NCBI RefSeq assembly: GCF_900110875.1
Contig: NZ_FOFM01000007.1
Coordinates: 248,001-312,000, forward strand
Source: Pseudovibrio axinellae
GTDB taxonomy: Bacteria; Pseudomonadota; Alphaproteobacteria; Rhizobiales; Stappiaceae
DNA: 64,000 nucleotides
Direction of reading: 5' to 3'
The position numbers and the translations under genes are program-made. The notes beneath the pieces were generated by a model. It was not told the origin of the DNA. It did no database searches and saw only the letters and a list, made by a program, of their open reading frames with translations. Numbering within the stretch: the first letter of the stretch is position 1; each line of letters starts with the position of its first letter. Below are positions 4,742 to 56,310 of the stretch, piece by piece.

Positions 4742-5105
4742 GTGAAAACAATTCCAAAAATTTTAGATAGTATTGAGTCTAATTTCTATTACTGTAGTCA
4801 ACACGTGGCAAATGGGAAGTGAATTTATGATCTAACCTCAATCAGGAGTTTATAGAGCCCATTAAGACATTTAATGGGGCGCCTGAGGCTGGAAACAGGC
4901 TGGCTGCACTATCGATTTTCATGCATGCAACAGCGAACGGCAACTCTGGTCACACACCAGCTTTGTTTCATCCGCGAGAAACTGGGAGCTGTTGAACGTC
5001 AGCAAAGGACTCAATCATGTCTAACGCTTCTTGCACACGAGAGAGCATTTAGGAGGGAGAATTGCACACCGTCCATAGCAATATTTATCTCTACCCTGCA
5101 CCAAA
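4742..5105. other. Non-coding region upstream of sir2-herA
   Basis: An AT-rich stretch of about 100 bases directly before the SIR2 start is the likely promoter. At 4858-4878, CCCATTAA and TTAATGGG form a perfect 8-bp stem with a 5-base loop. The remainder has no convincing gene. The 86-codon frame starting at 4874 has no family resemblance and I take it to be chance. Confidence 0.4.
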
Positions 5106-40374: not shown

Positions 40375-40507
40375 GAAACTCCACTTCGCAAGACCGGACA
40401 GAACTATACGTATTCAGCTCAACAGGTCCACTGACACATATCAAGTGCACCGCAGGTTTCGTCAAGCCGTTTGTAAATTCCGCACTTGACGTGACGGCCA
40501 ATAATAA

Positions 40508-40523
40508 TTTAGTAATAACTAAA
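40508..40523. promoter_or_regulatory. Candidate ArsR-type operator
   Basis: TTTAGT-AATA-ACTAAA is a perfect inverted repeat centred about 29 bases before the start of the ArsR gene, and fits autoregulation. Confidence 0.55.
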
Positions 40524-40544
40524 CAGTATAGAATGCACTAAACA

Positions 40545-40877
40545 ATGACAAACCTAAACACAACACTTGCCGCCCTAGCAAATCCGGCCCGGCGCCAAAT
40601 GCTGGACCAGTTGCTTCAGGGCAGCAAAACCGTGAAGGAACTGAGCCTCAATCACGACATGACAGCGGGCGCGATCTCTCAGCACCTGAAAGTCCTTGAA
40701 GAGGCACAGCTCATAACACGCATCGTCAAAGGACGAGAACATCACTGCGAACTAGCCCCCGATGGTCTTGAGCCAGTTCTGGGTTGGACAGAAAAGCACA
40801 AAACTTTCTGGCAGCAAAAGTTATCCTCTTTTGATGCATTCATCCATGAGCAAACCGGCGAGAAGGACAATGGATAA
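40545..40877 (+). CDS. ArsR-family transcriptional regulator
   Basis: A 110-residue winged-helix protein of the ArsR type found next to SRPBCC genes. It opens LNTTLAALANPARRQMLDQLLQG, with recognition helix AGAISQHLKVLEEAQLI. No metal-binding cysteines are present. It overlaps the SRPBCC gene by 8 bases and heads a three-gene operon (ArsR, SRPBCC, GFA). Confidence 0.85.
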   Translation: MTNLNTTLAALANPARRQMLDQLLQGSKTVKELSLNHDMTAGAISQHLKVLEEAQLITRIVKGREHHCELAPDGLEPVLGWTEKHKTFWQQKLSSFDAFIHEQTGEKDNG

Positions 40878-41334
40878 AGCAGCTGACACAAACTACAGCG
40901 TTAACGAAAGCATGTGGTTTGCAACCGACCTTGAAACTGCTTTCTCTGGATGGACGCAGCCGGACGCCATCACAAGCTGGTTTGGCCCACCCGGTTACAA
41001 AGCCGAAGTTCTGGAACTGGACCTCACACCAAATGGACGCTGGCGGTTTCGCATGGTCCCACAAGCAGGTGCCCCCTCTCACCACACAGGCCAATATGTC
41101 GAGATATCCCGGCCAGACAAACTGGTCTTTACGTGGGAGAGCGAGGAAGACAAGCACCTGACTAACGGACGCGACACACTGGTAACGGTGACATTTACTG
41201 AAGAGACTGGTGGTGTCCGCATTACCATTTTGCACGAGTGTCTGCCATCTGTGGAGGCTGCCAATGCTCTGACCTACGGCTGGGGCCGCGGTATCACCTG
41301 TTTTGATGACTGGTTAAGGAGACGGGAAGAATGA
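40870..41334 (+). CDS. SRPBCC (AHSA1-like) domain protein
   Basis: A 154-residue protein with the START-like Aha1 domain: AFSGWTQPDAITSWFGPPGY near residue 21, RPDKLVFTWES near 83, and a C-terminal TYGWGRGITCFDDWL. Members bind small hydrophobic ligands, and ArsR-SRPBCC pairs are common, but the ligand is unknown. The start at 40870 lies inside the end of the ArsR gene, with AAGGA ahead. Confidence 0.8.
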   Translation: MDKAADTNYSVNESMWFATDLETAFSGWTQPDAITSWFGPPGYKAEVLELDLTPNGRWRFRMVPQAGAPSHHTGQYVEISRPDKLVFTWESEEDKHLTNGRDTLVTVTFTEETGGVRITILHECLPSVEAANALTYGWGRGITCFDDWLRRREE

Positions 41335-41732
41335 CAAAGCAACTCACTGGTGGATGCGCCTGCGGTGCGCTCCGTTATAAAGCTGACGGCGAAATCGAGT
41401 TTTCCTTTAACTGCCACTGCCGCAAGTGCCAGCGCTCCACCGGAGCAGGCCACTCCTCAGCATTCGCAGTAGACACCGCTGAGGTTGAGTTTCACGGAGA
41501 GGTCCGCGAATACAAATGCCAAAGTGATAACGGTGCCTCAACCTACTCCGGCTTTTGCCATACCTGCGGCTCTCCTCTGACCAGTCGTACAGAACGCTTC
41601 CCCAACCGCATCTACATCCACGCCGCCACTCTGGATGACCCAAGCCTCTTCACCCCCAGTTTCACCATTTTTGAAGAAGCTGCCCAACCCTGGGACCCAC
41701 CAATGAAGAACCTGCAAACCGCACCCAGGTGA
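41331..41732 (+). CDS. GFA/CENP-V family zinc protein
   Basis: A 133-residue protein with the glutathione-dependent formaldehyde-activating fold. Zinc ligands are in GGCACGALRY, NCHCRKCQR and GFCHTCGSPL. It overlaps the SRPBCC gene by 4 bases, completing the operon. GFA proteins are proposed to act on glutathione adducts, and their real substrates are mostly unknown. Confidence 0.85.
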   Translation: MTKQLTGGCACGALRYKADGEIEFSFNCHCRKCQRSTGAGHSSAFAVDTAEVEFHGEVREYKCQSDNGASTYSGFCHTCGSPLTSRTERFPNRIYIHAATLDDPSLFTPSFTIFEEAAQPWDPPMKNLQTAPR

Positions 41733-41792
41733 TTAAGAAAAAGGCGTCGACGTAACAACGAGAAGCCTATAAACAGGCTCAGTTTGCTCACT

Positions 41793-42680
41793 CTACATTT
41801 CGGGGTTCACCAGTGAGCGGTGCACCTGCATTCCTGCCCATGCACCGTCACCAACGGCAAACGAAATCGAATGCGGCACACGGGCAACGTCACCACAGGC
41901 GAAAACGCCGGGAACAGTCGTCTGCTTGAATTCATCCGTCACAAGCTGTTGCCCCATGGAATGCTCCTCATGCTCGCAGCCTATAGCCGCTGCTAGCGCA
42001 TTGGATGGAAACGTATTTGAAACAACAAAGATGGCGGAGAACTCCAGCCTGCGGCCATCCGTAAGCACAATATCGGCAGTCCCCTCAATACGCTCGACCC
42101 CAACCTCTTCAAGGGCCACACCATGTCGAAGCAGGTGCGCACGCTGTCCATCATTCAGACAGACCACGTTATTGGTGAAAAAGGTAGTAGTGCCCCACTC
42201 CGGCATAATCTCGGCCTGATGCAATGAGACCGGATTAAACGCAATAACGCCGATCGGCCCGTTATTCAGCTCATAGCCATGGCAATAAGGACAGTACAAA
42301 ACCGATTGCCCCCAGCGCTCTGCCAGACCGGGAATATCAGGAATTTCATCACGAACACCAGTGGCAAGTAGAATCCGGTGAGATGTAAAGTCTGCTCCCT
42401 TATCGGTACAAACGCGGAACATACCAATCTCGCCTAAGACGTCCTGAACTGCCCCCGCATACCAAGTGAGCCCCGGATAGGCATCAAGCTGGTCTCTGGC
42501 CTGCTGCCATAACGCATTAGGATTCACGCCATCCTGCCCCAAAAAACCATGAAGGTGCTCTGCAAAGCGGTTCCGCCGCTCACCTGCATCGATCACCAGC
42601 ACAGATCTGCGAGCGCGCAGCAATTGCAAAGCAGCCGCCATCCCAGCGTAGCTTCCCCCAATCACAATAACATCATGCAT
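41793..42680 (-). CDS. Thioredoxin reductase-like FAD-dependent oxidoreductase
   Basis: A 295-residue two-dinucleotide-fold flavoprotein. It has FAD site VIGGSYAGMAAALQL at residues 7-21, redox-active CPYC at 130-133 and FAD-contact VFACGDVAR near 260. It reduces a thioredoxin-like or small disulphide partner. I start at the ATG at 42680 because FAD binding begins at once, as in the family. The frame is open 62 codons further upstream, but that part does not look like this family. Confidence 0.85.
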   Translation of the reverse strand: MHDVIVIGGSYAGMAAALQLLRARRSVLVIDAGERRNRFAEHLHGFLGQDGVNPNALWQQARDQLDAYPGLTWYAGAVQDVLGEIGMFRVCTDKGADFTSHRILLATGVRDEIPDIPGLAERWGQSVLYCPYCHGYELNNGPIGVIAFNPVSLHQAEIMPEWGTTTFFTNNVVCLNDGQRAHLLRHGVALEEVGVERIEGTADIVLTDGRRLEFSAIFVVSNTFPSNALAAAIGCEHEEHSMGQQLVTDEFKQTTVPGVFACGDVARVPHSISFAVGDGAWAGMQVHRSLVNPEM

Positions 42681-42888
42681 CCTCTGGCTTCCCTGTTTCT
42701 GGCGCTCAAATACTCGGTTCGCACATAACGCACGAATACGCTCCAGCAATGATGCCTCACCTCCTGCAAAGGCATCATTAAACGCAGCAAAAGGGATTAC
42801 CCTGTGAAGAGAGCATGTTCTCTTTGCGGTTGCCCGACCTTGGGATAAAAGTAAAGCTGTGATCAAGAAATTGGCGGCGAATACTTAG

Positions 42889-43407
42889 ATGCAAAAGCTG
42901 ATTGTTACTGGTGCCAACGGAGTAGGTAAGAGTTTTGTAGCAACACAATTAAGTTCTGCACGACCCGAAATTCCATTGTTTTCATTCGATGCATTAAAAC
43001 TGACCAGTGATTGGAAGCAGCGTCCAAAACCAGAAATCGACAAAAAACTCTCTCAAGTCACCGCGTCCGATGCTTGGATAATTGAAGGTGGTCCAAGCCT
43101 CCTTGCACAAGCACTTCCAAAAGCGGACGTTGTTATCTGGCTTAATCCTCCAGAGTTACTAAGAACTTGGCGCCTGATGATCCGCCCGTGGCGAAATCTT
43201 GGCAAAACCCGCCCAGAGCTGCCCGAAGGAAACCGCGACTGGCCTTTTCAGCAATATCGTTTTGCGATACGTAGCCTTAAAAACGGCTCAAATTTCAGAG
43301 CGCGCATCTCTGCTTGTTTGGAGCAATCAAACACGCAACAAATTTGGCATTGCCGAAACGACAAAGATATTGAAGCTGCGCTCAAAAAATGGAGCGCTGC
43401 GGGTTAA
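42889..43407 (+). CDS. Small P-loop ATPase/kinase-like protein (zeta-toxin/FlaR-like)
   Basis: A 172-residue P-loop protein with Walker A VTGANGVGKSF at residues 6-16, DAWIIEGGP near 66 and the lid-type segment TWRLMIRPWRN. It resembles adenylate-kinase-like proteins of unknown role. It is divergent from the FAD reductase. It sits in a run of single accessory genes and may be mobile cargo. Confidence 0.65.
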   Translation: MQKLIVTGANGVGKSFVATQLSSARPEIPLFSFDALKLTSDWKQRPKPEIDKKLSQVTASDAWIIEGGPSLLAQALPKADVVIWLNPPELLRTWRLMIRPWRNLGKTRPELPEGNRDWPFQQYRFAIRSLKNGSNFRARISACLEQSNTQQIWHCRNDKDIEAALKKWSAAG

Positions 43408-43445
43408 CTATAAGGCCAACATACACACTAGTGTGTGGCAAGCTG

Positions 43446-43835
43446 CTATTCAGTGCGGCCTGTACCATCGCGGTCGTGTTTATAACATGTCGTGTGAGGA
43501 AACGGTGGCAGCCATTTTTCACGACGAACAGTCCAGAGTTCGTAGGTCGGCATGAGTTGATCAGGGCTGTCTAAAGCTCCCAGCAGTACTTCTGTCTCAT
43601 CTGAGCTGCGCGCAAAAACTGAGGAACCACAGCAAGGGCAAAAATGTCGCCCTTTATAATCGTGTGTTTCCCCCTCAATCACAACGGCATCCTCAGGAAA
43701 TACTGCGGAGGCATAAAAGAGAGCGCCATGATGCTTTCGGCAGTCAAGACAGTGACAAACACCAACCCGATAAGGCCGACCCGTCGCTACGATTCGAACC
43801 TGACCGCACACGCACCCACCGGTGAACTTCTCCAT
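43446..43835 (-). CDS. GFA/CENP-V family zinc protein
   Basis: A 129-residue protein with zinc ligands in GGCVCGQVRIVATG, CHCLDCRKHHGA and FCPCCGSSVFAR. It is a paralogue of the GFA protein at 41331-41732, of a different subgroup, and is not in an operon. Substrate unknown. Confidence 0.85.
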   Translation of the reverse strand: MEKFTGGCVCGQVRIVATGRPYRVGVCHCLDCRKHHGALFYASAVFPEDAVVIEGETHDYKGRHFCPCCGSSVFARSSDETEVLLGALDSPDQLMPTYELWTVRREKWLPPFPHTTCYKHDRDGTGRTE

Positions 43836-43920
43836 AGTCTGCCTCCTTTAGATACCACCTGTTTGTTGGCTTCAACCCGAGCCCTTCACAAACGACAACC
43901 CCCATTTTCCCTTCGTAGCC

Positions 43921-44005
43921 CCTAACCACCCACACCCTTCTTCAGATCCTCGCAGATCATGTCACAGGCCTTCTCCGCGATCATGACTATAAGGAGTTGG
44001 TATTG
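43921..44005 (-). pseudogene. Relic of the 3' end of a GMC oxidoreductase gene
   Basis: About 71 of 86 aligned positions match the 3' end of the GMC gene at 44513-44598, with one gap. Read on the minus strand it encodes MIAEKACDMICEDLKKGVGG and stop, against [20 protein letters not shown] in the intact gene. The single-base gap breaks the frame upstream of that part. The two copies flank the GNAT gene in the same orientation. Confidence 0.85.
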
Positions 44006-44037
44006 TAAAAAATTATGGTGACCCGTAAGACGTACTT

Positions 44038-44517
44038 ATGTTTCAAACACGGACCTCAACTGAGCAAGACACCTCACGTATTTTAGAGATATGGCGAGAG
44101 GCTGTCGACGCGACACATCACTTTCTATCCCCTGAAGACAGAGAAGCGATTGAGCGGGAAGTTTCTACTTTCTTTCCAAAAGTATGTTTCATTCTCGCGG
44201 TTGATGAAACCGACGAACCTCTCGGCTTTATGTTCCTCCATGAAGGGCATCTGGAGGCTTTGTTTGTCGACCCTACTCATCATGGCAAAGGCATCGGCAA
44301 CACGCTGATCAAAACCGCTCTTGTCGATCACCCCGACTTAACAACAGATGTTAATGAACAAAACCTTCAGGCTGTTGGCTTTTATGAACGAATGGGCTTT
44401 GTAAGAACTGGCCGCTCAGCGACCGACGGTCAGGGACGACCATACCCTCTCATCCATCTGCAATTCCAGCATGAAAGAACACTCAACGCTTATTGCTCAG
44501 GCAAGCAGGTTCCCTAA
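44038..44517 (+). CDS. GNAT family N-acetyltransferase
   Basis: A 159-residue GNAT of the YjaB type. The acetyl-CoA motif is HGKGIGNTLI near residue 82, and the family element DVNEQNLQAVGFYERMGFV near 103 follows. Its stop codon overlaps the stop codon of the GMC gene on the other strand. It is flanked by two copies of the GMC 3' end, so it looks like inserted cargo. Confidence 0.85.
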   Translation: MFQTRTSTEQDTSRILEIWREAVDATHHFLSPEDREAIEREVSTFFPKVCFILAVDETDEPLGFMFLHEGHLEALFVDPTHHGKGIGNTLIKTALVDHPDLTTDVNEQNLQAVGFYERMGFVRTGRSATDGQGRPYPLIHLQFQHERTLNAYCSGKQVP

Positions 44518-46121
44518 CCACCCACACCCTTCTTCCGGTCTTCGCGGATCATATCCGAAGCCTTCTCCGCAATCATGATAGTTGGGGAGTTGGTATTGCC
44601 GGAGGTGATGCGGGGCATGATGGAGGCATCAACCACACGAAGTCCTTCAATGCCCTTCACCTTCAGCCGTTCATCAACAACAGCCCCCATCGAACACGTC
44701 CCGACAGGGTGGAATATCGTTGTACCGATATCACCTGCAGCAGTGGCAAGTTCTTCGTCGGTGCTGATTTGCGGACCCGGCAGGTACTCTTCTGGAGAAA
44801 ATGCCTGCATCGCCTTGGTTTGCATAATTTTACGCGTGAGCCGCAAACTATCAGCGGCCACCTGACGGTCCGTTTCCTGCGATAGATAGTTCGGCTGGAT
44901 CTTCGGGTGAGCTGTCGCATTGCCTGAGCCAATATGAACACTCCCGCGAGAGTCTGGCCGCAAGTTACAAACACTGGCAGTAATGGCAGGGAACTCATGC
45001 AGCGGATCGCCAAATTTATCCAGCGACAACGGTTGGATGTGATACTCGATATTCGGCGCCTCATAGGAATTATCAGAGCGAGCAAAAACCCCAAGCTGAC
45101 TTGGTGCCATGGACATTGGGCCGGAGCGATTCAACGCATATTCTGCTGCAATTTTCGCCTTACCAATGAGCGAATTCGCCTGCTGGTTCAGCGTTACTGT
45201 ATTTTGCACCTTATAAATGCTGCGGATCTGCAGATGATCTTGAAGGTTTTCGCCTACATCCGGTTGGTCCAGCACCATCTCAATACCAAGTGGCATCAAG
45301 CGCCCGGCAGAGCCAATGCCAGAGAGCTCAAGGATTTGCGGTGACCCGATCGACCCCGCGCTCAAAATTATCTCACCTGTGCACGCGGCAGAAACCATCT
45401 CCCCCTTCATCATCATGCAAACACCCGTCGCACGGCGTCCACCAAACTCCAAAGCAGTCACCTGCGCTCCGGTCAGAACCTTTAAGTTGCTGCGCCCCGC
45501 AACAGGCTTAAGAAACCCTTTGGAGACACTCCATCGCACGCCTTTGCGCTGGTTCACTTGAAAGTAAGAGGAGCCGAAATTGTCGCCGCCATTAAAGTCA
45601 TCAACCTTCGGAATGCCCACTTCTTCGCAAGCATCACGGAAACGGTCGAGGATCGGCCACGACAAGCGCTGTTCTTCAACGCGCCATTCACCGCCCTCAC
45701 CATGCACCTTGGAAGAACCGGCATAGTGATCCTCTGACTTCAGGAAGTACGGCAGCACATCATCCCAGCCCCAACCAGTCAGGCCCAGCTGTCGCCAGTT
45801 GTCATAATCCTGCGCCTGCCCGCGCAAATACAGCATTCCGTTGATGGAGGAGCACCCGCCCAGCAATTTGCCGCGCGGGTAGTTCAGCTTGCGCCCGTTC
45901 AGGCCCGGCTCTGCCTCAGTCTGGAACCCCCAATCCATGCGGGGGTTGCCCATGCAATACAGGTAACCAACCGGAATGTGGACCCATGGGTGTTTATCGT
46001 TTCCGCCCGCTTCCAGCAGCAGCACTTTCACATCGGGGTCTTGAGAAAGTCGATTAGCAACAACACAGCCAGCAGAGCCAGCTCCAACCACGATGTAATC
46101 CCAGCTTCCCAATGCGCGCAT
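44514..46121 (-). CDS. GMC-family choline dehydrogenase-like oxidoreductase
   Basis: A 535-residue flavoprotein with FAD site [15 protein letters not shown] near residue 11 and the GMC signature [19 protein letters not shown] near residue 85. The C-terminal active-site region HPVGTCSMG contains the first catalytic histidine, and SGNTNSPT the asparagine. It resembles BetA, but no betB or betI is nearby, so the substrate (choline, or an aliphatic alcohol) is open. A divergent copy of its last 28 codons lies at 43921-44005. Confidence 0.85.
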
Positions 46122-46211
46122 TTTGGCCCTCCCAAGCCCAAACCCTCTTTGTCACCTAGGATAGAAACTGATCTGACCAAATGCACTAATAAATTATGTC
46201 TAGATCACCAG

Positions 46212-46685
46212 TTACGCATCACGGCGATGCGCAACAGCGGCAAAGCATCCCCTGCGGGCATAGTGCATCTGGATATAGGAGACCTCAGGGTTTTCAAAGA
46301 ACTGCTCAAGCATCGGCTTGATATCATCACTCTGCGCAATATCGGCTTCAATCATCATGTGATTTGCATCGAAGCCACGCAACGATAGCAATCGCAACGA
46401 CAAAGAAACCGGCACGTCATTGTCATAGGGTGCAGCTTGTGTAGCGTTCTCGCGCACAAACACAGCATGAGAGGCTTTATACGGCGTTTCATTGGGCTGA
46501 TACACGTAGTTCACAAGAAACACCCGTTCGCCAATTTCCGCATCAGCCAATGTTACCCGGCACGGAAAGCCGGGCTTCGCGTCAGCTGTATAAGCGACCA
46601 CATTACGGGCAGAAAGCTCGCCCTCACTCAGTCCGTTCAGGTATTCAAACTCTTTTGATTTCAATCCACTAATAACAAAAGCCAT
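46212..46685 (-). CDS. DUF1203 domain protein
   Basis: A 157-residue protein opening FVISGLKSKEFEYLNGLSE, followed by KPGFPCRVTLADAEIGERV and ETPYKASHAVFVRE. This is the DUF1203 pattern, with the conserved PCRxxLxDA. Function unknown. It is transcribed alone between the GMC and DUF533 genes. Confidence 0.75.
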   Translation of the reverse strand: MAFVISGLKSKEFEYLNGLSEGELSARNVVAYTADAKPGFPCRVTLADAEIGERVFLVNYVYQPNETPYKASHAVFVRENATQAAPYDNDVPVSLSLRLLSLRGFDANHMMIEADIAQSDDIKPMLEQFFENPEVSYIQMHYARRGCFAAVAHRRDA

Positions 46686-46825
46686 AGATTTCTCCTCATG
46701 TTTGGAGCAACCTATGGCCTAATGAAAACCTGAACCACCCGATTTGCGAGTACGACAGAAACCAATGCCCGAAAAAGCCCAGCGACCTTGAAACAAACGA
46801 CGCACAAAACGCGGACAGGCCTAGG

Positions 46826-47587
46826 TTAAGCTTGCGATTGCATCTCGGCAATTGCCTTTTCCAGCTCAGCAACCAAACCGCTGTCCAGTTCCAACCGTGC
46901 CGCCAGCATCATCAAATAGGCCTTTTCAGCAGGAAGGTCAGGGTCAATTGCCAAACGAGAGGCGGTGTAGATTTCCGCTGCGGTTTCCGGGCAAGTTGCA
47001 AACGCCACAACACGGTCAATATCAAGCGGTGCCCGCATTTCATCCAGCACGAAAGCCTTCTCTTCAGCACCAAGGCCAAGCTCATCCAGCTTTTCAAAGA
47101 TCCGCTGCATTTCATCCTGATCCACATTGCCATCAGCTTTTGCTGCCTGAATCATTGCGGTGATCAAAGACATGGCAAATTCTTTGCCGTTAGAGGACCC
47201 CGCATCAGGGTCAAACGCGGTTCCGGTTGGGTCTGGTAAAGCAAGCGGTTCTGGCACAGGCACAACAGTTGCTGGGGCAGGCTGAGCAGCCCCTTGAGTG
47301 TCAACAGCACCGCCGCCGTTGTTCTTGCCGTCTTGCCATGTCTGGAAAGCTTTGTAGGCAAGGCCGCCAACCAGCGCCATACCGCCGTATTTCACGGCCT
47401 TTTTGCCCATCTTCCTGCCCTTCTTGCTGCCAAGAAGGTAGCCGGCCAAACCTCCGGCAACAGCACCACCAGCAAGACCACCAGCATTGTTTTTGATGTA
47501 CGACTGCCCTTTGTCCAAGGCACCACGGGCCTGATTGCCACCGTTGGAACCTAAGAACTGATCAAGAAGTGCCTTGCTGTCGAACAT
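46826..47587 (-). CDS. DUF533/TerB-like inner-membrane protein (YebE-like)
   Basis: A 253-residue protein. The N-terminal half has a glycine-rich membrane-associated stretch (AGGLAGGAVAGGLAGYLLGSKKG) and GGMALVGGLAYKAF, then a proline-rich linker. The C-terminal half is a TerB-like helical domain with MIQAAKADGNVDQDEMQRIF, whose acidic motif may bind metal. The ATG at 47587 is preceded by AGGA. Role probably in envelope or stress biology. Confidence 0.8.
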   Translation of the reverse strand: MFDSKALLDQFLGSNGGNQARGALDKGQSYIKNNAGGLAGGAVAGGLAGYLLGSKKGRKMGKKAVKYGGMALVGGLAYKAFQTWQDGKNNGGGAVDTQGAAQPAPATVVPVPEPLALPDPTGTAFDPDAGSSNGKEFAMSLITAMIQAAKADGNVDQDEMQRIFEKLDELGLGAEEKAFVLDEMRAPLDIDRVVAFATCPETAAEIYTASRLAIDPDLPAEKAYLMMLAARLELDSGLVAELEKAIAEMQSQA

Positions 47588-47710
47588 CTGTAATCCTATC
47601 CCGTTGCTTTTGGGCGTCATGCGCCAAATCTCTATGGAGATGGGAAGCAATGGATTTCACTTCAAGATGCACTTTCCTGCAAAAGTGCCACCTGACAAAA
47701 TTGTAATAAA

Positions 47711-48178
47711 CTAGCCAGTCAGTGGCAGGTGGTTATCATCGCGCAAAGTATCCATCGCGATGGAGCTGCGCACATTCTGCACCGCTTCATGGGGCAACAG
47801 GTCGTTATTGATAACATCACTCAGCGCCTTCAAATCACGCACTCTGATCTTGAGCATGTAATCCATGTCGCCTGTCATTGCGTAGGCTTCTTGTACATTT
47901 GGGATAGTTCGCACCAAATCGCGAAACAGCTTGGCATTTTCCTTATTGTGCGTTGCCAGCGCCACGCCAACAAAGGCAATCACATCCAGCCCAAGGTATT
48001 CAGGGGAAAGGTCAGCCTTGTATCGCCGGATCACCCGCTCCTGCTCCAGCCGCGTTCGCCGCCGCGAAACCTGCGAGGCAGACAGGTGAATCACATCCCC
48101 AAGTTCCTGGTTGGTCTGGCTGGCATCTTCTTGCAACGCTGCAAGTAATTTTAAATCAAATTGGTCAAGTTCGATCAT
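47711..48178 (-). CDS. Lrp/AsnC-family transcriptional regulator
   Basis: A 155-residue protein with HTH in residues 5-50 (LDQFDLKLLAALQEDASQTN; LSASQVSRRRTRLEQ) and a RAM ligand domain with VQEAYAMTGDMDYMLKIRV. It is divergent from hppD across 135 bases, so regulation of tyrosine breakdown by aromatic amino acids is likely. The start is the ATG at 48178; the longer frame adds residues atypical of Lrp. Confidence 0.85.
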   Translation of the reverse strand: MIELDQFDLKLLAALQEDASQTNQELGDVIHLSASQVSRRRTRLEQERVIRRYKADLSPEYLGLDVIAFVGVALATHNKENAKLFRDLVRTIPNVQEAYAMTGDMDYMLKIRVRDLKALSDVINNDLLPHEAVQNVRSSIAMDTLRDDNHLPLTG

Positions 48179-48313
48179 ACATCGCACCAAATCATCATAT
48201 GACGCACATTTCATGCATATACTGCGTGATTTCACGTAAGAATGCAAACCTGTCGCGCCAGAGATATTTCAGAATAGCTCTAAACTGAAATCGCCTTGTT
48301 TGAGGAGGAACAA

Positions 48314-49426
48314 ATGGGCCCATTTCCGCACGACGCAGCACCAGCTGAAATCACAAAAGAAAACCCGGCTGGAACAGATGGCTTTGAATTTGTCGAGTTT
48401 GCGCATCCAGACCCGGAAAAGCTGGAGGTCCTCTTCCGCCGTATGGGTTTTGCGCCAGTCGCAAAGCACAAGAGCAAGAACATCACGGTTTATCGTCAAG
48501 GTGATGTGAACTACATCCTCAATGCAGAGCCAAACAGCTTCGCCTCCCGCTTCATTGACGAACACGGCCCATGTGCACCATCCATGGCATGGCGTGTTGT
48601 GGATGCACAAAAGACCTTTGAGCATGCGGTGAAACGCGGCGCGGAAGCCTACACAGGCGCCGATAAAACCCTCGACGCCCCTGCCATCATGGGCATAGGC
48701 GGCTCCCTGCTTTATTTCGTCGATAAGTACGGTGACAAAGGCTCCGCATACTCACAAGAGTTTGACTGGCTGGGCGAAGCGGATGTACAGCCTGCAGGCA
48801 AGAGCTTCTATTACCTCGATCACCTGACCCACAACGTCTATCGCGGCAACATGGACAAGTGGTGGGCGTTTTACCGCGAGCTGTTCAACTTCAAGCAAAT
48901 CCACTTCTTCGATATTGATGGTCGCATCACAGGCCTCGTCAGCCGCGCGATTACCTCACCCTGTGGCAAGATCCGCATTCCGCTCAACGAGTCCAAGGAC
49001 GACACCAGCCAGATCGAAGAGTACTTGCGCAAGTACAAGGGCGAAGGCATCCAGCACATCGCTGTCGGCACTGATGACATCTATGAGGCCACCGACAAGC
49101 TGGCAGAAGATGGCCTCAAGTTCATGCCCGGCCCACCACAGACTTATTATGACCGCAGCGCCGAGCGCGTGCATGGCCACACGGAACCACTCGACCGCAT
49201 GGCCAAACACGGCATCCTCATAGATGGTGAAGGTGTTGTCGGCGGCGGCATGACCAAGATCCTGCTACAGATCTTCTCCAAAACCGTGATCGGCCCAATC
49301 TTCTTCGAATTCATCCAGCGCAAAGGCGACGAAGGCTTCGGCGAAGGCAACTTCCGCGCCCTCTTCGAAAGCATAGAAGAAGACCAGATCCAACGCGGTG
49401 TCATCAAACAAAACGCCGCCGAATAA
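48314..49426 (+). CDS. hppD: 4-hydroxyphenylpyruvate dioxygenase
   Basis: A 370-residue Fe(II) dioxygenase converting 4-hydroxyphenylpyruvate to homogentisate in tyrosine catabolism. The iron ligands are His in LDHLTHNVYRGNM, His in IQHIAVGTDDIYE, and Glu in GPIFFEFIQRKGD. The segment GFGEGNFRALFESIE ends the catalytic domain. GAGGAGGAA just before the ATG at 48314 decides this start over the TTG at 48296. Homogentisate genes are not in the window. Confidence 0.95.
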   Translation: MGPFPHDAAPAEITKENPAGTDGFEFVEFAHPDPEKLEVLFRRMGFAPVAKHKSKNITVYRQGDVNYILNAEPNSFASRFIDEHGPCAPSMAWRVVDAQKTFEHAVKRGAEAYTGADKTLDAPAIMGIGGSLLYFVDKYGDKGSAYSQEFDWLGEADVQPAGKSFYYLDHLTHNVYRGNMDKWWAFYRELFNFKQIHFFDIDGRITGLVSRAITSPCGKIRIPLNESKDDTSQIEEYLRKYKGEGIQHIAVGTDDIYEATDKLAEDGLKFMPGPPQTYYDRSAERVHGHTEPLDRMAKHGILIDGEGVVGGGMTKILLQIFSKTVIGPIFFEFIQRKGDEGFGEGNFRALFESIEEDQIQRGVIKQNAAE

Positions 49427-49445
49427 CCACGAAGAACGACAGCCG

Positions 49446-49485
49446 AAAAGACTGAAAGCGCAGGGGGACGCTTTCGGTCTTTTTG
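49446..49485 (+). terminator. Terminator of hppD
   Basis: AAGACTGAAAGCG and CGCTTTCGGTCTT pair with one mismatch and are followed by TTTT. The hairpin lies 20 bases after the hppD stop codon. Confidence 0.85.
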
Positions 49486-49677
49486 TGTTTTGAATAAGTA
49501 CCAATAAGTAGATCGCACCCGATCACGATCGATGCAGCATAGCCTTCACTCGCTGCTCTTCATGAGTGAAACGCATAAACGCTGCGCTGCGATACCTGTT
49601 TTAAGTATTAAAACAATACGCGATGCTCTGATAAATTATGCAGACTATAAATCAGCAAACAGATTGGCTTGAACGAA

Positions 49678-50235
49678 ATGAGACCACCAACTTTAAAGAC
49701 AGATCGTTTTGTTATTAGAGCCTTTGAGAGAGAAGACTTACTCTCATTCGCAAAATATCGTGCGCACGAAGACATTGCTAGATACCAAAGCTGGGTGGAC
49801 TTTTCACTTCAAGATGCCATCGATTTTTTTAACAGCATGGATTATTCGAACTTTGGCGCAGAAGGAAACTGGTATCAGTTAGCAATTGCATCAGCTATCG
49901 ACGGTGAATTGCTAGGTGATATAGCTGTACATTTCATAGATAAAGACCAAATAGAAATTGGGTTCACGATTTCACCTTTACATCAAGGTCAAGATATCGC
50001 GACGGATGCAATCTCAATATTCCTAGGGTATGCATTTTCTGATCTCAAAAAACACCGCACAATTGCTATCACAGACACCAGAAATCAGGCATCAGTTCGG
50101 CTTCTTGAAAAGCTGGGTTTTCGCCGGGAGGGCCACTTTATTGAGAACATATTCTTTAAAGGAGAGTGGGGCGACGAGTACCTCTACGCTTTGTTGCGGA
50201 ATGAAAATAAGCTCAGAACTCAAAAATGTGCCTAG
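49678..50235 (+). CDS. GNAT family N-acetyltransferase (RimJ/RimL-like)
   Basis: A 185-residue GNAT with the RimJ-type opening LKTDRFVIRAFEREDLLSFAKY, the acetyl-CoA region SPLHQGQDIATDAI near 104, and NQASVRLLEKLGFRREGHFIEN near the end. The ATG at 49678 is preferred over the TTG nine bases before. The gene is AT-rich compared with hppD. Substrate unknown (a ribosomal protein N-terminus or small amine). Confidence 0.8.
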   Translation: MRPPTLKTDRFVIRAFEREDLLSFAKYRAHEDIARYQSWVDFSLQDAIDFFNSMDYSNFGAEGNWYQLAIASAIDGELLGDIAVHFIDKDQIEIGFTISPLHQGQDIATDAISIFLGYAFSDLKKHRTIAITDTRNQASVRLLEKLGFRREGHFIENIFFKGEWGDEYLYALLRNENKLRTQKCA

Positions 50236-50429
50236 GTAAGCCCAGATGGGCGACTGAGTCAGCACGGACAATCCGTTGCACAAGGTTGCCGCCAACACCT
50301 CAGAATTCGCTGTTCAACAAGTACAAACTACGGCTTGAATGCCCCCGCCCAATTAAACTATACTCCAATACTCATATTTTAATTTCCGAGGAGCAACGAG
50401 CCATCGGAAGTGCTGGAGAGGTGCCACAC

Positions 50430-50915
50430 ATGCGTACTGGGGCAAACGACATTTATCTGGAACGCCAGCCAGAGCGACTGGTGCTGGAAGGATACCGCCG
50501 CTGGTCCGCCGGGTTTGAAACGGGCTCAATAGCGCCCTGGGAGATGGCCTGGGACCTCTATGACGAAGCATTGGGTCATCACAACGCCGGACTCGCAATT
50601 GCCAGCCTCTCTCAATATGTGCGGACCTTAAACCGCTGCGCAACCTGCCCGCTCAGAAGCTTCCCCTATGAATCCCAGAGACTTTGTGTGGAAGAATGCC
50701 TGACCATGGGCCTAATCGCCGGACTGCAAAACGATACTGATACAGCTGCACTCTGTTTAAGCCAAATAGTCTGTCCGCAACGATGTCAGGAAGTCGAATA
50801 CGCTGCCCTGAACTTCGCACAAACGCTAAAATGCATGGGACAAGTCATGCTCCCCGTTCCAGAAAACGTACTGGAAGACATCCAACAAAAAGCAACACAC
50901 AAGAATTTCCATTAA
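50430..50915 (+). CDS. Conserved-type Cys-rich hypothetical protein
   Basis: A 161-residue protein starting MRTGANDIYLERQPERLV. The front half (YRRWSAGFETGSIAPWEMAW) is helical. The rear half contains cysteine pairs: CATCPLRSFPYE, LCVEECLTMG and CPQRC. The spacing suggests a metal or iron-sulphur site, but I recognise no family. GGAGAGG eight bases before the ATG at 50430 sets the start; the frame is open further upstream but not protein-like. Its 3' end lies just before the permease relic. Confidence 0.6.
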   Translation: MRTGANDIYLERQPERLVLEGYRRWSAGFETGSIAPWEMAWDLYDEALGHHNAGLAIASLSQYVRTLNRCATCPLRSFPYESQRLCVEECLTMGLIAGLQNDTDTAALCLSQIVCPQRCQEVEYAALNFAQTLKCMGQVMLPVPENVLEDIQQKATHKNFH

Positions 50916-50940
50916 GGTAGCAGAATGATCTCTCCTATAG

Positions 50941-51025
50941 CACCTCACCCCATCCCCAACGCTGTCAGGCCCACGCTCCACTAATAACTCACCGCCACAC
51001 AGAATACGGTAATCGGCAGCATCCA
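50941..51025 (-). pseudogene. Relic of the 3' end of an SLC13/ArsB-type permease gene
   Basis: It matches 69 of 85 positions, without gaps, to the 3' end of the permease gene at 52316-52400. Read on the minus strand it gives WMLPITVFCVAVSY, a stop, then WSVGLTALGMG and stop; the intact protein has WMLPITVFCVVVSY then VWIVGLMALGVG. The premature stop shows decay. It is separated from the intact gene by the 1.3-kb cargo at 51026-52315. Confidence 0.85.
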
Positions 51026-51056
51026 AAAGTAGAGCTATCAAGGATTGCTGTACACC

Positions 51057-51560
51057 CTAACCAACCAGCCTCCAAAGCCGCTCCAGCTCTTTAGGATGCT
51101 CAAACCGCAGTATCTGCCCATCAAACTGAGCTAGTTTATCAAGGTCGCGTGATCGCCTCGCTCTTTTGTAATTGAGCACAAACCAAAGAAACTTCCAGTC
51201 AAAGCGCTCTTCGCAGCCGTCAACGAATTCACCTTCACGCTTCTTCGTAAAGCCCATCAACATCCGTCGCAGCGCTCGAAAGAAGCAAATATGTGTCGGG
51301 AAATCAAGAAGGATCACAGTATCGGCACGTGCCACCCGATATTCCAGCGTCCCCCCATAATTTCCGTCAATGATCCAGCAAGGATCAGCCGCTAATTCCT
51401 TCACCTTCTCTGCCCAAACACTCTTGTCAGTCGGCACCCATCCCGCCTGCCAATAATGAAAATCCAGATGAACAAGCGGCAGTCCGGTAGCAGCAGCCAG
51501 CTCCCTCGCCAGCGTAGACTTCCCCAACCCCGGACATCCAACAACCATCACCCGCTGCAT
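51057..51560 (-). CDS. P-loop ATPase, FlaR/adenylate-kinase-like
   Basis: A 167-residue protein with Walker A VVGCPGLGKSTLAREL at residues 6-21, a substrate-type segment LVHLDFHYWQAGWVP and a DPCWIIDGNYGG strand. It belongs to the DNA-topology-modulation FlaR-like kinases of unknown substrate. It lies inside the segment bounded by the permease relic and the permease gene. Confidence 0.7.
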   Translation of the reverse strand: MQRVMVVGCPGLGKSTLARELAAATGLPLVHLDFHYWQAGWVPTDKSVWAEKVKELAADPCWIIDGNYGGTLEYRVARADTVILLDFPTHICFFRALRRMLMGFTKKREGEFVDGCEERFDWKFLWFVLNYKRARRSRDLDKLAQFDGQILRFEHPKELERLWRLVG

Positions 51561-51644
51561 TTTCTCTCCAGGCCTCCACCTGTTTTACGATAAATACAAA
51601 ACAGCTATAAGAGCAAACAACAGAGCAGTACGTTGGGCACTTTT

Positions 51645-52231
51645 CTAGTTCAGTGCAGCTGCCTCGATCGTGTCATATTGAACGCCGCTAAAGGTCTCAC
51701 GATCGTCCGATAGCACCATCGTTCTTAGTATGATCCCTAATTTTGGCGAGTAAGACTGCTCTAGCGTAATTGGGGGCCTTCCTTCCAGCTCCAAGCGCTC
51801 CTCAACACGCCACGTATCATAAACGCATTCACCGATTTTTACCTTCGCCATGTTCAGAAAAGAAAGCTTAACTGCCCCTCGATAAATTTCTTTTTCCTCG
51901 GACTTAAGGACGACCTTAGAGGTCCAGGTTCCAGATTCCTTAGATCATCCAACTGAGAAACCTGCTCAGAGTACTCAGTGGAATATGTCCGTTGAGAACT
52001 AATCCGTTGCCCGATTGCAAGCGCATGTGGGAAAATAGAAATCACTTTATCCTGAGTAGGCTCAAATATATCCTCACGTTCTTCAATCACGCCATCCTTA
52101 GTGCTCTTTAAGACAGCAACAAATAAAGGGCTTGTTCTTGTAAGTTTCAGTCCACCCTCAAGCATTTTCTGCGGACAAGCCCAAGCAAAATTCATTCCAA
52201 ACAAGAAAAATAAAATTGTCCATCTAAGCAT
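51645..52231 (-). pseudogene. Frameshifted gene for a secreted hypothetical protein
   Basis: The first part (52231 to about 51940) encodes a signal peptide (MLRWTILFFLFGMNFAWA) and a protein with FVAVLKSTKDGVIEERED. After a shift near 51930-51945 the second frame reads ESGTWTSKVVLKSEEKEIYR, then LSFLNMAKVKIGECVYDTW and on to AALN. The second frame is closed by a TGA just upstream, so one base was gained or lost there. The joined protein would have about 195 residues. It is a broken gene, or a sequencing error. Family not recognised. Confidence 0.75.
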
Positions 52232-52319
52232 TACAACCTCATCAACAAATAAAAATAATTATCCATGTCACAAACACATGAAGCCAGAATAGGCTATTCA
52301 ACCAAGGCTGCAAACCACC

Positions 52320-53588
52320 TCACCCCACACCCAACGCCATCAACCCCACAATCCAAACATAACTCACGACCACACAAAACACCGTAATCGGCAGCATCCA
52401 CCAGCAGAATTGCCAGAAGGTGAAGGAGACGGCGCCGAACTTTTCGGCTTGCTGCACGACGATGACGTTACTTGCTGCGGAGATGATAAACAGGTTGCCA
52501 GCCACGGTGGAGATGGTGGAAAGCATCATGAAGGTGCCAGTGCTGCCGCCATCCAGCAGCTTCAGGTAAAGTTCCACCACAGGCACGTTGGAAAACAGCT
52601 GGCTGGCCCAAAAACTCACCACTGCGGTGATCGTCAAATCATCCAGCTCCCCCTGCAACGAACCAAGCAGATATTGCAGGGAGCCGGAGGCGTAAAGCGC
52701 TCCAGTCACCACAAACATGGCCACAAAGAAGACCAGCGTTGCCCAGTCTACCTCCTTCAGTACACGCAAACGTTCATCCCCCGCTAGGTAAATAGGCAAA
52801 CAAGACACCAGCCCGACCCAGCCAAAGGGCAGCTCTCCCAAATCAAAATAAGTCCGTCCTAAACTGTCGCCAACAATGATACCAACCAGCAACGCGACAC
52901 TAACCAGCGCAGGCCACTGCCGCCGGCTGACCTCAACAGCCTCAGCTTGGGTCTCAACCCCATCAGATACCATCATGCTGTCATCAGTGGCATTCTTCTG
53001 CACCAACCGGTGAAACCGAAAGAACACAGCCACAAGGCAAATCACACCGGGAACAAGCGCCCAAATCATGAAGGTTGCCAGCATATTTGGAAAGTTAGCT
53101 GCATTCACCACGAGTATATTCTGCGGGTTTCCGACCGGAGAAATCATAGAGCCAACCGTCACAGCAGCACACAGCGCCACCAACACAACGGCGAGCCTCC
53201 ATTGAAAGGCTTTGCTCAAGATAATCGCAATGGGCACGCCAATCACCGCGGCTGCATCATTGGTAAGCACAGCGGCGCAAATTGCAGAAGCCACCACAAA
53301 CCAAAGCAGGGCTAACCCGGCATTCGCCCGCTTCAACAACATATCGGCGATTTCCTGCGAAAGACCGGTGTCATAAAGTGACGAGGCAATACTGAACACC
53401 GCAAACAAATAGAAGATCAGCTGCCAATCCACCGCATGAAACGCAGCCACCGGCGTAATCTCTCCCAGCAGCAGCAACACAATCGCCCCTGCCAACATGA
53501 TGTGCCAGATCCGCACCATGGGCGGAAGCCACTGGCGCACGGCAATTCCAAGGAAAATAAGAGCGGAAATACCAAGAGAAACCGACAT
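52320..53588 (-). CDS. SLC13/ArsB/NhaD-type permease
   Basis: A 422-residue membrane protein with about eleven helices. Family landmarks are AAVLTNDAAAVIGVPIAI and MISPVGNPQNILVV in the first half and FWASQLFSNVPVVELYLKL in the second. Such proteins carry anions or dicarboxylates, or exchange Na+/H+. The substrate is unknown. A divergent duplicate of its last 27 codons lies at 50941-51025. Confidence 0.8.
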   Translation of the reverse strand: MSVSLGISALIFLGIAVRQWLPPMVRIWHIMLAGAIVLLLLGEITPVAAFHAVDWQLIFYLFAVFSIASSLYDTGLSQEIADMLLKRANAGLALLWFVVASAICAAVLTNDAAAVIGVPIAIILSKAFQWRLAVVLVALCAAVTVGSMISPVGNPQNILVVNAANFPNMLATFMIWALVPGVICLVAVFFRFHRLVQKNATDDSMMVSDGVETQAEAVEVSRRQWPALVSVALLVGIIVGDSLGRTYFDLGELPFGWVGLVSCLPIYLAGDERLRVLKEVDWATLVFFVAMFVVTGALYASGSLQYLLGSLQGELDDLTITAVVSFWASQLFSNVPVVELYLKLLDGGSTGTFMMLSTISTVAGNLFIISAASNVIVVQQAEKFGAVSFTFWQFCWWMLPITVFCVVVSYVWIVGLMALGVG

Positions 53589-53717
53589 ACCACACCGTAT
53601 CTACCATGGTTTGACAACAGCTTAATTGTCGCCCCCACAATCGAGCAAAATCCTTGGCGGCTTAGAGAGAACTCTCACCTATCCTCAACCAAGGTCGCAC
53701 AACATTTTAAGGTCCCC

Positions 53718-54956
53718 ATGAAACTCAACAAGGCAATGCTAGGGACGAACTTCTTCGCTGGCGATGTCGTGGGGGGAATTGGCCCTTATCTGGCGATTTA
53801 TTTGCTGACCGGCCTCCAGTGGTCTCCCGGAAGTATCGGAATTGCACTGGCCATCGGCTCGCTCACCACAGTGGCGCTGCAAACACCGGCCGGGGCTTTC
53901 ATCGACACCACCACCAAGAAGCGCTTGCTGCTGGCCTCCTGCGCATTACTCATTGGCTTGGCGACCATCTCCATTTTGCTGTTCTCACAGTACCCCGTGG
54001 TGATTTATATAGCGCAGATCTTCATGGGCATCGCCGTTGCGTTTGTTGGTCCCTGCATTGCCGCCATAACGCTTGGCATTTCAGGCCCTGAGCATTTCAC
54101 AGTACAAATGGGCGCCAATCAGGCTGCCAATCACACTGGTAATGTCTTCGCAGCTATCTTGGGGGCAGGTCTGGCCCTGTGGATCTCAGCAGAAGGCGTT
54201 TTCTGGCTTGTGGCAATTATGGCTATGGGAATGGCGGTCAGCATCGCAATGGTCAACGGATCAGCGATCAACCACACCGCAGCTCGCGGCGGTCTGCATC
54301 ACACAGCCAACGCAGGTGATGCGCCCTCAACTATTGGGACCATTCTTGCAGATAAGCGCCTGCTGACATTGGTCCTGTGCGTGTTCATGTTTCACTTTTC
54401 CAACGCTGCAATGCTGCCGCTGGTCGGCCAAAAGTTGTCCGTCAACTCAAACGTCAACATCGGCATCGCCTTCGCTTCCGCCTGCATCATCGTCGCCCAG
54501 TTTTGGATGACGCTTATGTCGTTGTTGTGCGCTGCCAAGGCTGATTCATGGGGCCGTAAGCCACTCTTCTTGGTTGCCTTTTTCATCCTGCCAATCCGCG
54601 GCCTGCTGTTCATGTGGTTTGAGGACCCAGTCGCGCTCATCTCGGTGCAGTCTCTGGACGGTATCGCCAACGGAATTTTCGGCGTCATTATCCTGCTCAT
54701 CGCTGCCGATCTGACACGCGGCACAGGCCGCTTCAATCTGGTTCAGGGGGCCTTGGCTGCTGTTGTGGGCATCGGTTCAGCATTTTCTAACTTGGTTGCT
54801 GAGGAGATTGTCCAGTTCTTCGGCTACTCACCGGCTTTTATCACCCTTGCCATTTTAGCTTTCATCGGCGCATCCATGTATCTGTTCTTCATGCCAGAAA
54901 CCATGGCGGCGCAAAGTGACGAGGACGAACAAGCTCCCCCTCAACAAACGAGCTAA
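53718..54956 (+). CDS. MFS transporter
   Basis: A 412-residue major facilitator protein with twelve helices. The loop between helices 2 and 3 reads LQTPAGAFIDTTTKKRLLL, a variant of the MFS motif; AKADSWGRKPLFLVAF is the equivalent in the second half. The ATG at 53718 follows AAGG, while the upstream open frame is hydrophilic and not family-like. It is transcribed 145 bases ahead of a ROK regulator, so it may carry a sugar. Confidence 0.85.
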   Translation: MKLNKAMLGTNFFAGDVVGGIGPYLAIYLLTGLQWSPGSIGIALAIGSLTTVALQTPAGAFIDTTTKKRLLLASCALLIGLATISILLFSQYPVVIYIAQIFMGIAVAFVGPCIAAITLGISGPEHFTVQMGANQAANHTGNVFAAILGAGLALWISAEGVFWLVAIMAMGMAVSIAMVNGSAINHTAARGGLHHTANAGDAPSTIGTILADKRLLTLVLCVFMFHFSNAAMLPLVGQKLSVNSNVNIGIAFASACIIVAQFWMTLMSLLCAAKADSWGRKPLFLVAFFILPIRGLLFMWFEDPVALISVQSLDGIANGIFGVIILLIAADLTRGTGRFNLVQGALAAVVGIGSAFSNLVAEEIVQFFGYSPAFITLAILAFIGASMYLFFMPETMAAQSDEDEQAPPQQTS

Positions 54957-55101
54957 TCCTTACGATTAGGTCACCTCAACTTTCGGGTGAAAACACCAAT
55001 TAATGTGGTTCCTCCCTTTCTTTAATTGCTCGCAGTTACTTATGCTTGTCGCCACCAGATAATACAGAGCGCATACGTGCGATAAGCAGGCCAGCAATCG
55101 A

Positions 55102-56310
55102 ATGATCGAAAAAGCCAGTAAAGAGCAGGTTCGGCGTCAAAACCGGTTCGTGGTATTGTCCACGTTACGGCGCCATACGACACTGGCTCGCGTCGAGCTT
55201 GGCCGACTCACAGGTCTGTCCCTTGCCGCTGTCACCTCCATCACTGCTGATCTTAAGGATCGCGGCCTGATCAAAGAGGTGGAAGAACAGCCCAGCCCCG
55301 ACACCAACACACGAGGCCGCCCGCGTACCTATTTGCGTTTGCGGGATGATGTCGCCCACGTCATCACTGTCAAAATCACGGTTGATCGTGTGTCTCTGGC
55401 CCTGGTTGATTACACAGGCAAACAGCACGCTGAGGCAAAGTTCATGGTGGAATCCTCCGATATGGGAGGGGACGCCTTCACGGCCTTGCTGGCACGGGAA
55501 ATCAAAGCCCTCAAGAAGACAGAGCCTTTGCGCGCCCGCAGCGTGATGGAAATTACGGTGGCAACGCAAGGCATCGTCGGCAAGCACAATGGTTCCATCA
55601 TCTGGTCACCAACCATCGCGGAAAGACAAGTCGAGCTGACGGCCAAATTGACCAAAGCTCTTGGTATCACCTGCACACTCTACAACGACACCAATATGAT
55701 TGCAGAGGCCCTGCACCGACAGGATACCGAAAAATACAGCGGTAACTTTGTGGTGGTGTATATCGACCGTGGTGTAGGCATGGGCATCTTCATCAAGAAT
55801 ACCCTTTACCGAGGAGAAACCGGAGCGGCAGCTGAATACGGCCACTCACCCTACACACCCGATGGAGCGGCCTGTAGATGCGGAAACAAAGGCTGCCTGG
55901 AAGCTTACATTGCCGATTATGCCCTTTACCGGGAAGCGCAAAAGCTGCCAAAGGAAACCTCCCCTTCCGCGATGTTCTATGGCCCGGAATACATCCAGAA
56001 CCTGAGAAGCAGAGCCCGTGATGGCGAGGCGCAGGCACAAAAGGTCTTTACCGATGCAGGGTTTGCACTGGGCATAAGCCTCGCCCGCACAATCTCATTG
56101 CTGGACCCAAGCCGCATCGTTCTGACAGGCAAAGCAATGCAAGCCTATGACCTGTTTAAGCATGGCCTGAACAAGGGACTGGAGAGCGGATTGCTAACCC
56201 CGTTGCTGGACTCCGTTAATCTGGAGGTTTTGCCGTGGGATGAGGACTTCATCCTCCAAGGCCTGCTCATCAAAGCCCTAAAGCACCTGGACGAAGCCTT
56301 GGTGCTGTAA
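55102..56310 (+). CDS. ROK-family transcriptional regulator (NagC/XylR-like)
   Basis: A 402-residue protein. An N-terminal winged HTH (LARVELGRLTGLSLAAVTSIT) is followed by a ROK sugar-binding fold. It carries the glycine-rich YIDRGVGMGIFIKNTLYRG and the zinc site GAACRCGNKGCLEAY. The usual acid of ROK kinases is not clearly present, so it is a regulator. The upstream MFS gene is the likely target. Confidence 0.9.
   Translation: MIEKASKEQVRRQNRFVVLSTLRRHTTLARVELGRLTGLSLAAVTSITADLKDRGLIKEVEEQPSPDTNTRGRPRTYLRLRDDVAHVITVKITVDRVSLALVDYTGKQHAEAKFMVESSDMGGDAFTALLAREIKALKKTEPLRARSVMEITVATQGIVGKHNGSIIWSPTIAERQVELTAKLTKALGITCTLYNDTNMIAEALHRQDTEKYSGNFVVVYIDRGVGMGIFIKNTLYRGETGAAAEYGHSPYTPDGAACRCGNKGCLEAYIADYALYREAQKLPKETSPSAMFYGPEYIQNLRSRARDGEAQAQKVFTDAGFALGISLARTISLLDPSRIVLTGKAMQAYDLFKHGLNKGLESGLLTPLLDSVNLEVLPWDEDFILQGLLIKALKHLDEALVL

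Follow-up and report, generated by a model that had tools for sequence, protein, structure and literature searches.

The 64,000-nucleotide stretch analysed here (the window), part of contig C66 (325,968 bases) in a 5.13 Mb Pseudovibrio genome labelled G000, carries two loci about 7 kb apart at which a short copy of a gene's 3' end (a relic), a small cargo and the intact gene follow one another, the gene encoding a GMC family oxidoreductase at one locus and a CitMHS/DASS/ArsB-like transporter at the other. This shared design had been proposed in a first-pass annotation of the window and was borne out by alignments. The features of the two loci are as follows.

43920..44005, minus strand: relic 1, the last ~84 bases of the GMC oxidoreductase gene including its stop codon, with the reading frame disrupted
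44038..44517, plus strand: cargo 1, a GNAT acetyltransferase gene (NCBIfam PRK10514 acetyltransferase, 229.9 bits, cut-off 134)
44514..46121, minus strand: intact GMC family (choline-dehydrogenase-like) oxidoreductase gene (PF00732, PF05199)
50941..51033, minus strand: relic 2, the last 89 bases of the transporter gene and 4 beyond, with an internal stop
51057..51560, minus strand: cargo 2a, a P-loop kinase-like gene (NCBIfam PRK08118, 163.5 bits, below the cut-off of 215)
51645-51851 and 51854-52231, minus strand: cargo 2b, a gene in two pieces, present as one open reading frame (ORF) of 200 amino acids (aa) at the same place in the relative G002
52320..53588, minus strand: intact CitMHS/DASS/ArsB-like transporter gene (PF03600, E = 2e-39)

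Both relics lie in the same orientation as their parent gene, include the stop codon together with 2 (relic 1) and 4 (relic 2) bases beyond it, and end abruptly on the inner side, 84-89 bases into the gene. Relic 1 (43920-44005; its start had been placed at 43921 before) aligned to the GMC gene 3' end (44512-44598) at 84% identity over 88 columns (E = 4e-18), with 74 of the 85 aligned bases identical and the final 24 fully so, and relic 2 (50941-51033) aligned to the transporter gene 3' end (52316-52408) at 80% over 93 bases (74/93 identical, E = 6e-16). Cargo 1 is convergent with the GMC gene and overlaps its stop codon by 4 bases. The close relatives compared (G002-G006, G009, G014 and G015 among them) are Pseudovibrio, with a genus set of 16 genomes, and G025, G070 and G017 belong to other genera, with a family set of 87 genomes. 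The 24-base tail common to relic 1 and the intact GMC end was absent from all nine relatives compared, and both copies therefore belong to the G000 lineage after its split from the others.

We scanned 1.08 Mb of the G000 genome for such relics, with genes called by a simple codon-score script (952 called, of which the 903 longer than 300 bases were scanned) and the last 150 bases of each gene aligned to uncalled DNA up to 4 kb downstream. Five control placements were run on the same 903 genes (the 3' end searched upstream, on the opposite strand or in a distant region, and the 5' end searched downstream or upstream), and a clear relic was defined by a scan score of at least 28, this threshold and the choice of the GMC gene having been made after the G000 result was known. 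The highest scores were 54 (GMC) and 51 (transporter), followed by 26, 22, 16 and less, against a maximum of 21 in the controls; the matches scoring 26 and 22 lie at repeats that extend across the gene itself or adjoin it, and were excluded from the count. The relics are not a product of chance but are real and rare in G000, the number of stubs being above that in the controls but, at 2 of 903 genes, not amounting to a genome-wide class. Chance similarity or ordinary paralogue repeats could be entertained in view of the other direct repeats less than 8 kb apart in the 64 kb window (E < 1e-3), which are only stretches of two paralogous gene pairs; for both loci this explanation is refuted by the E values above and by controls in 903 genes that come nowhere near. 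Tandem paralogues were considered separately as the source of relics 1 and 2 and rejected, since there is no wider similarity around either.

Outside G000, the scan of G009 (487 genes) gave no 3' relic at or above 28 (best 25) and five 5'-end control matches at or above this score (four downstream, one upstream), which probably reflect paralogue families, a form of noise that the scan carries there. The single score of at least 28 in the loci of seven relatives (120 genes) was that of the GMC gene of G003 (37), and the single 3' match at this level in 18 further loci (204 genes, target DNA unmasked) was that of G025, again at the GMC gene (106); in the 18-locus scan the controls gave four matches of at least 43 and one of 30, the largest and the 30 both coming from one ORF on the G025 relic. 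The eight GMC genes covered before the 18-locus scan were confirmed as called, and for the 17 GMC genes of that scan the stop position only was located. Clear relics outside G000 were thus observed at 2 of 25 GMC genes compared to 0 of 786 other genes (Fisher P = 0.0009, post hoc), and P was 0.0006, equally post hoc, when four possibly non-equivalent loci were left out, namely those of G016, G020, G021 and G026 (4 of the 17), where AsnC and the 4-hydroxyphenylpyruvate dioxygenase (HPPD) gene were not found beside GMC and which may be a different locus. Among the 17 loci of other genera, one GMC end was clear (G025) and the remaining 16 scored 14-22, with controls of up to 25; the G021 end (22, compared to 17 for shuffles) was not counted, and no relic was found at the GMC end of G008 in the 1.5 kb read downstream.

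The 3'-end scar recurs at the GMC gene in three lineages beyond G000, in two genera, and this recurrence is the new part of our observations. In G015, a close relative of G002 and G004, the site is empty, the stop codon of a regulator gene, which we take from its sequence to be DeoR-type, being separated from the GMC stop codon by 15 bases. G002 and G004, whose relic was tallied as a single event, carry the regulator gene, a spacer with a 32-base remnant, a glyoxalase-like cargo (PF13468) and the intact GMC gene. This remnant aligned to the terminal 35 bases of the GMC gene in G015 with scores of 22.5 (G004) and 16.5 (G002), neither of which was reached by any of 5000 shuffles (best 16.0 and 15.5). 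The stop context is CTAAGC in the G002/G004 remnant and in G015, compared to CTAACA in the intact G002/G004 ends, and the flank of the remnant is also G015-type; the G002/G004 relic is therefore a resident-type end, and the cargo and the new end arrived together. In G003, a remnant at oriented positions 4839-4945 showed 70.4% identity over 98 bases to the G002/G004 GMC ends (E = 2.5e-11) and 68% over 103 bases to its own, with an aminoglycoside 3-N-acetyltransferase (AAC(3)) family gene (PF02522) lying as cargo between remnant and GMC gene. The G025 relic, 217 bases long and 90% identical to its own GMC end, lies in an open frame beyond a 163-aa ORF. Cargo and inner boundary differed among the four GMC events (G000, G003, G002/G004, G025), with relic lengths of 86, ~100, 32 and 217 bases, respectively, and in each of them foreign or allelic DNA lies beside the homologous region, the G015 site being empty. 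As a separate observation, the matches listed for the 87 family genomes include at least one further short GMC C-terminal open frame (109 aa, G017:C2:3404939-3405154), which is possibly another fragment.

The second locus lies in a variable interval. The neighbouring genes that bear on it, together with the neighbour of relic 1, are the following.

43446..43835, minus strand: GFA-domain gene, neighbour on the resident side of relic 1 (PF04828, E = 1.6e-22)
48311..49426, plus strand: HPPD gene, conserved left border of the variable interval (TIGR01263, 409 bits, cut-off 277)
49669..50235, plus strand: GNAT acetyltransferase gene flanking relic 2 on its resident side (PF13302, E = 6.6e-25)
50430..50915, plus strand: gene without a Pfam match, at the same place beside HPPD in G003

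The kinase-like gene was present in 4 of the 16 genus genomes, in all four between the HPPD and transporter genes and in the same orientation, with no conservation between species in the flanks beyond it. The gene order of G002 (kinase-like gene, uninterrupted 200-aa version of cargo 2b, transporter gene) matches that of G000, the two cargo 2b pieces having 46% and 54% identity to the G002 ORF at 12762-13364, and no transporter relic was found in G002. The G003 interval starts instead with a homologue of the gene at 50430..50915 (75.7% DNA identity over 452 bases), which has homologues at other places in six further relatives. With cargo 2 linked to the transporter gene in G002 and gene 50430 beside HPPD in G003, G000 therefore reads as if both arrangements had been placed one after the other, relic 2 marking the point where they meet. 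Across eight relatives the HPPD-transporter interval ranged from 50 bases (G005) to 4527 (G009), with contents differing between most of them, so that conserved genes flank differing contents, as in integrase-less accessory-gene hotspots. Between G002 and G004, the two sides of the interval are 98.7% and 96.2% identical and enclose an unrelated block (1416 and 346 bases, respectively) that in both genomes ends within ~10 bases of the transporter stop codon, and the interval is therefore exchanged in pieces.

We favour, with a probability of roughly 0.6, a one-sided homologous exchange between alternative versions of the locus combined with an illegitimate join in the tail of the resident gene, that is, homology-facilitated illegitimate recombination. 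DNA from a relative with the same gene, or its 3' part, and with different genes beyond it would enter the cell; one end would be resolved by conventional homologous recombination, within the gene or upstream of it, and the other by an illegitimate join inside the resident gene, a few dozen to a few hundred bases at most from its end. The product would be an intact gene whose 3' end is that of the incoming DNA, followed by the incoming neighbours as cargo and then by the resident 3' end, stranded together with its native flank and now decaying. Such illegitimate joins often involve a few bases of microhomology. We infer which of the joins was homologous and which illegitimate, and likewise an entry of the DNA by transformation, transduction, a gene transfer agent or conjugation; the G000 events presumably ran in the same direction as the G002/G004 event. 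This model needs no integrase, and it accounts for cargo 2 as the neighbour of the transporter gene elsewhere, for the varying relic lengths and for the end of the similarity in G000 at the stop codon, the two arrangements sharing nothing beyond it. Of two models offered in the first-pass annotation, the one in which an incoming orthologue with its cargo leaves a stub of the resident gene fits best, in that an incoming stretch displaced the resident end, although homology is needed at one end only; it is supported by cargo 2 adjoining the transporter gene in G002 and by the comparison of G002/G004 with the empty G015 site, in which the relic carries the resident's downstream flank. With regard to entry, the GTA_TIM domain, which we take to be linked to gene transfer agents, was detected in 16/16 genus genomes compared to 1/14 control genomes, and the Competence domain, presumably ComEC-type, in 16/16 genus genomes but also in 10/14 controls and is thus little informative; the presence of either domain does not show its use.

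Several observations weigh against this reading. The model leaves unexplained why the joins fall so near the end of the gene, and no donor with a GNAT gene adjoining GMC was found among the 14 short loci read. Whole-gene trees group the intact GMC and transporter genes with G005 (support 0.993 and 0.997, respectively), not with a foreign lineage, and are uninformative on the donor. Differences at codon positions 1/2/3 numbered 2/3/6 in relic 1, 3/6/10 in relic 2 and 7/3/12 in G025, a pattern compatible with a displaced allele and with a decaying duplicate alike, because the intact copy is under selection either way. As to the remnants in the relatives, that of G002 scored hardly above its shuffles (16.5 vs 15.5), that of G004 had a score of 18 in the general scan, which is noise level, and stands by its position, and the G003 and G025 matches fail to reach the stop codon, by ~20 and ~10 bases, respectively. 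The breakpoints anticipated in both genes are likewise weakly supported and are not specific to the genes with relics: in permutation tests of G000 against G005 and against G002/G004/G015 (18 tests, P values uncorrected), P was 0.01-0.04 for the transporter gene and 0.02-0.20 for GMC, compared to 0.005-0.01 for HPPD and 0.02-0.08 for o46212, both relic-free, and 0.28-0.71 for AsnC and mfs. The middle segment of the transporter gene is closer to G005 and its outer parts are closer to G002/G004/G015; in part-gene trees, mostly of low support, bases 241-900 set G000 and G005 apart (96), and bases 1-240 and 901-1269 gave G000 a short branch, which is suggestive only. Homologous exchange in this neighbourhood appears plausible from these sequence comparisons.

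Integration without a site-specific enzyme could also have proceeded through a non-replicating circle or concatemer carrying the cargo and a short 3' piece of the gene, which would enter through one homologous crossover at the end of the gene. The same final structure would result, no integrase would be required and relic length might vary with the piece carried; we nevertheless regard this course as unlikely, given that four of the five events would need a crossover within ~30-110 bases of sequence that is diverged today, and that cargo 2 also neighbours the transporter gene in G002, which requires no circle. A local event without foreign DNA, in which the gene end and cargo were duplicated in tandem, or copied by template switching, and then partially deleted and left to decay, would account for the shared 24-base tail that assigns both GMC copies to one lineage, for differences at codon positions that fit one copy decaying neutrally, and for the G003 and G025 relics that fall short of the stop codon. 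It is improbable all the same, as in G000 chance would twice have had to place the end of a copy within 2-4 bases of the stop codon, the G002/G004 relic resembles the G015 end and flank and not the intact end at the stop context, and the cargo is different at each GMC event.

Genomic islands at tRNA genes or gene 3' ends leave an intact gene, cargo and a stranded 3' end, in this order, and the geometry observed here is that of an attL/attR pair, which would fit small elements being inserted site-specifically at the 3' ends of genes by a recombinase supplied in trans; the post hoc excess of clear relics at GMC genes outside G000 and nine integrase-domain matches elsewhere in the G000 genome (eight above the cut-off) point the same way. 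However, domain searches found no integrase in cargo 1 or 2 (the two cargo 2b pieces themselves being unscanned), the whole G002 counterpart of cargo 2b matched no NCBIfam family, no integrase gene was found in or beside the elements and none of the nine integrase-domain matches is on contig C66. Nor is there an identical direct-repeat core at a fixed position: the relics are 66-90% identical to the gene ends, although full identity would be expected of an attachment core, and the inner boundaries differ in every GMC event. No tRNA was detected in 40000-56000 and no Rfam family reached its gathering score in 42000-54000. Relic lengths that differ at one gene, together with the lack of an integrase-domain match on C66, therefore argue against site-specific integration, which we consider very unlikely, and the other initial model, in the tRNA-island sense of a fixed attachment core, is disfavoured on the same grounds. 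The statement in the first-pass annotation that neither cargo encodes an integrase agrees with our searches. A case that looks like a conventional integrated element is found elsewhere in the genome and contrasts with the relics: identical 50-base repeats at C86:385194 and 397162, 12 kb apart, are accompanied by a third, 90% copy (region to 408828) and an integrase-domain match at C86:397363-397872. An integron gene cassette is unlikely, judging from spacing alone, since cargo 1 overlaps the GMC stop codon and the G003 cargo ends ~26 bases from its relic. A further idea, to which we give little credence, is that small single-gene inserts without a recombinase of their own land preferentially at the GMC 3' end in at least two genera, the illegitimate join being steered there by something about the gene end, be it its conservation, a site of breakage or pausing, or an enzyme acting in trans.

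Homology-facilitated illegitimate recombination, the process that we prefer, is known in kind and is here seen at metabolic genes. Rhs C-terminal displacement reportedly likewise involves an incoming gene end and its neighbour displacing the resident end. The mechanism is defined in PMC3240628 and proposed in PMC2884548 for loci where one segment replaced another; in both papers, as here, one end is homologous and the other illegitimate, and unrelated DNA comes to lie beside a shared gene with no integrase, whereas the evidence there consists of experiments or of inference from variable segments and here of natural 3'-end relics of metabolic genes. For type VI secretion system (T6SS) loci, PMC5361080 proposes the same mechanism, an incoming gene end and its neighbour displacing the resident end, with one step that shifts the 3' end of the resident effector back. 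In the T6SS and Rhs cases, the toxin part reportedly forms the variable 3' end and an immunity gene is kept; our loci have a conserved gene end and a decaying remnant. Many hotspots without integrases are described in PMC5635113 and resemble the HPPD-transporter interval in having variable contents between conserved genes, no mobility genes found and high turnover; the double homologous exchange suggested there would, as we interpret it, leave no relic. Merodiploid formation by transformation (PMC3784515) was set aside, the duplications there being larger. Literature searches that named neither gene and covered few subscription papers found no account of such relics at the ends of GMC or CitMHS genes, which is weak evidence of absence. 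It is still an open question how accessory genes reach the many variable spots of chromosomes where integrases are lacking. The scar left by a gene 3' end has a direction and, where the empty site is known, shows the resident side and the position of the join; events of this rare kind could thus be counted in genome databases, and their recurrence at one metabolic gene in several species gives a concrete locus for tests of mechanism.

With respect to the surroundings of the GMC gene, protein relatives of cargo 1 were found in 15 of the 87 family genomes, G000 included; within the genus the closest is in G014 (74%), ~5 kb from its GMC gene, and that of G010 stands at 38%. In G070 (C8, ~217-223 kb), a relative of the cargo 1 GNAT (59%) adjoins HPPD and lies ~5.5 kb from a GMC gene, which is not the donor arrangement sought. 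The cargo 1 GNAT thus seems to wander within one neighbourhood. The GFA-domain gene at 43446..43835 has no homologue beside GMC in the relatives, and its closest genus homologue (74%) is in G005, ~11 kb from the GMC gene and beyond the transporter gene. Homologues of the pair 42889 (+) / 43446 (-) keep the convergent order at another chromosomal place, with a spacing of ~26 bases in G002, ~0.8 kb in G004 and ~2 kb in G006, and are split over different contigs in G003 and G014; the two genes may have moved together. Within the GMC gene, bases 181-480 (window 45642-45941) are 88-95% like G015 and G002, compared to mostly 68-89% for the remainder, hinting at a separate between-species exchange. 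A comparison of the GMC region with plasmids gave 552 matching records, none covering 80% of the query. Elsewhere on the same contig, a 1295-aa ORF (C66:320150-324037) contains a 1.1 kb tandem duplication with 99% identity.

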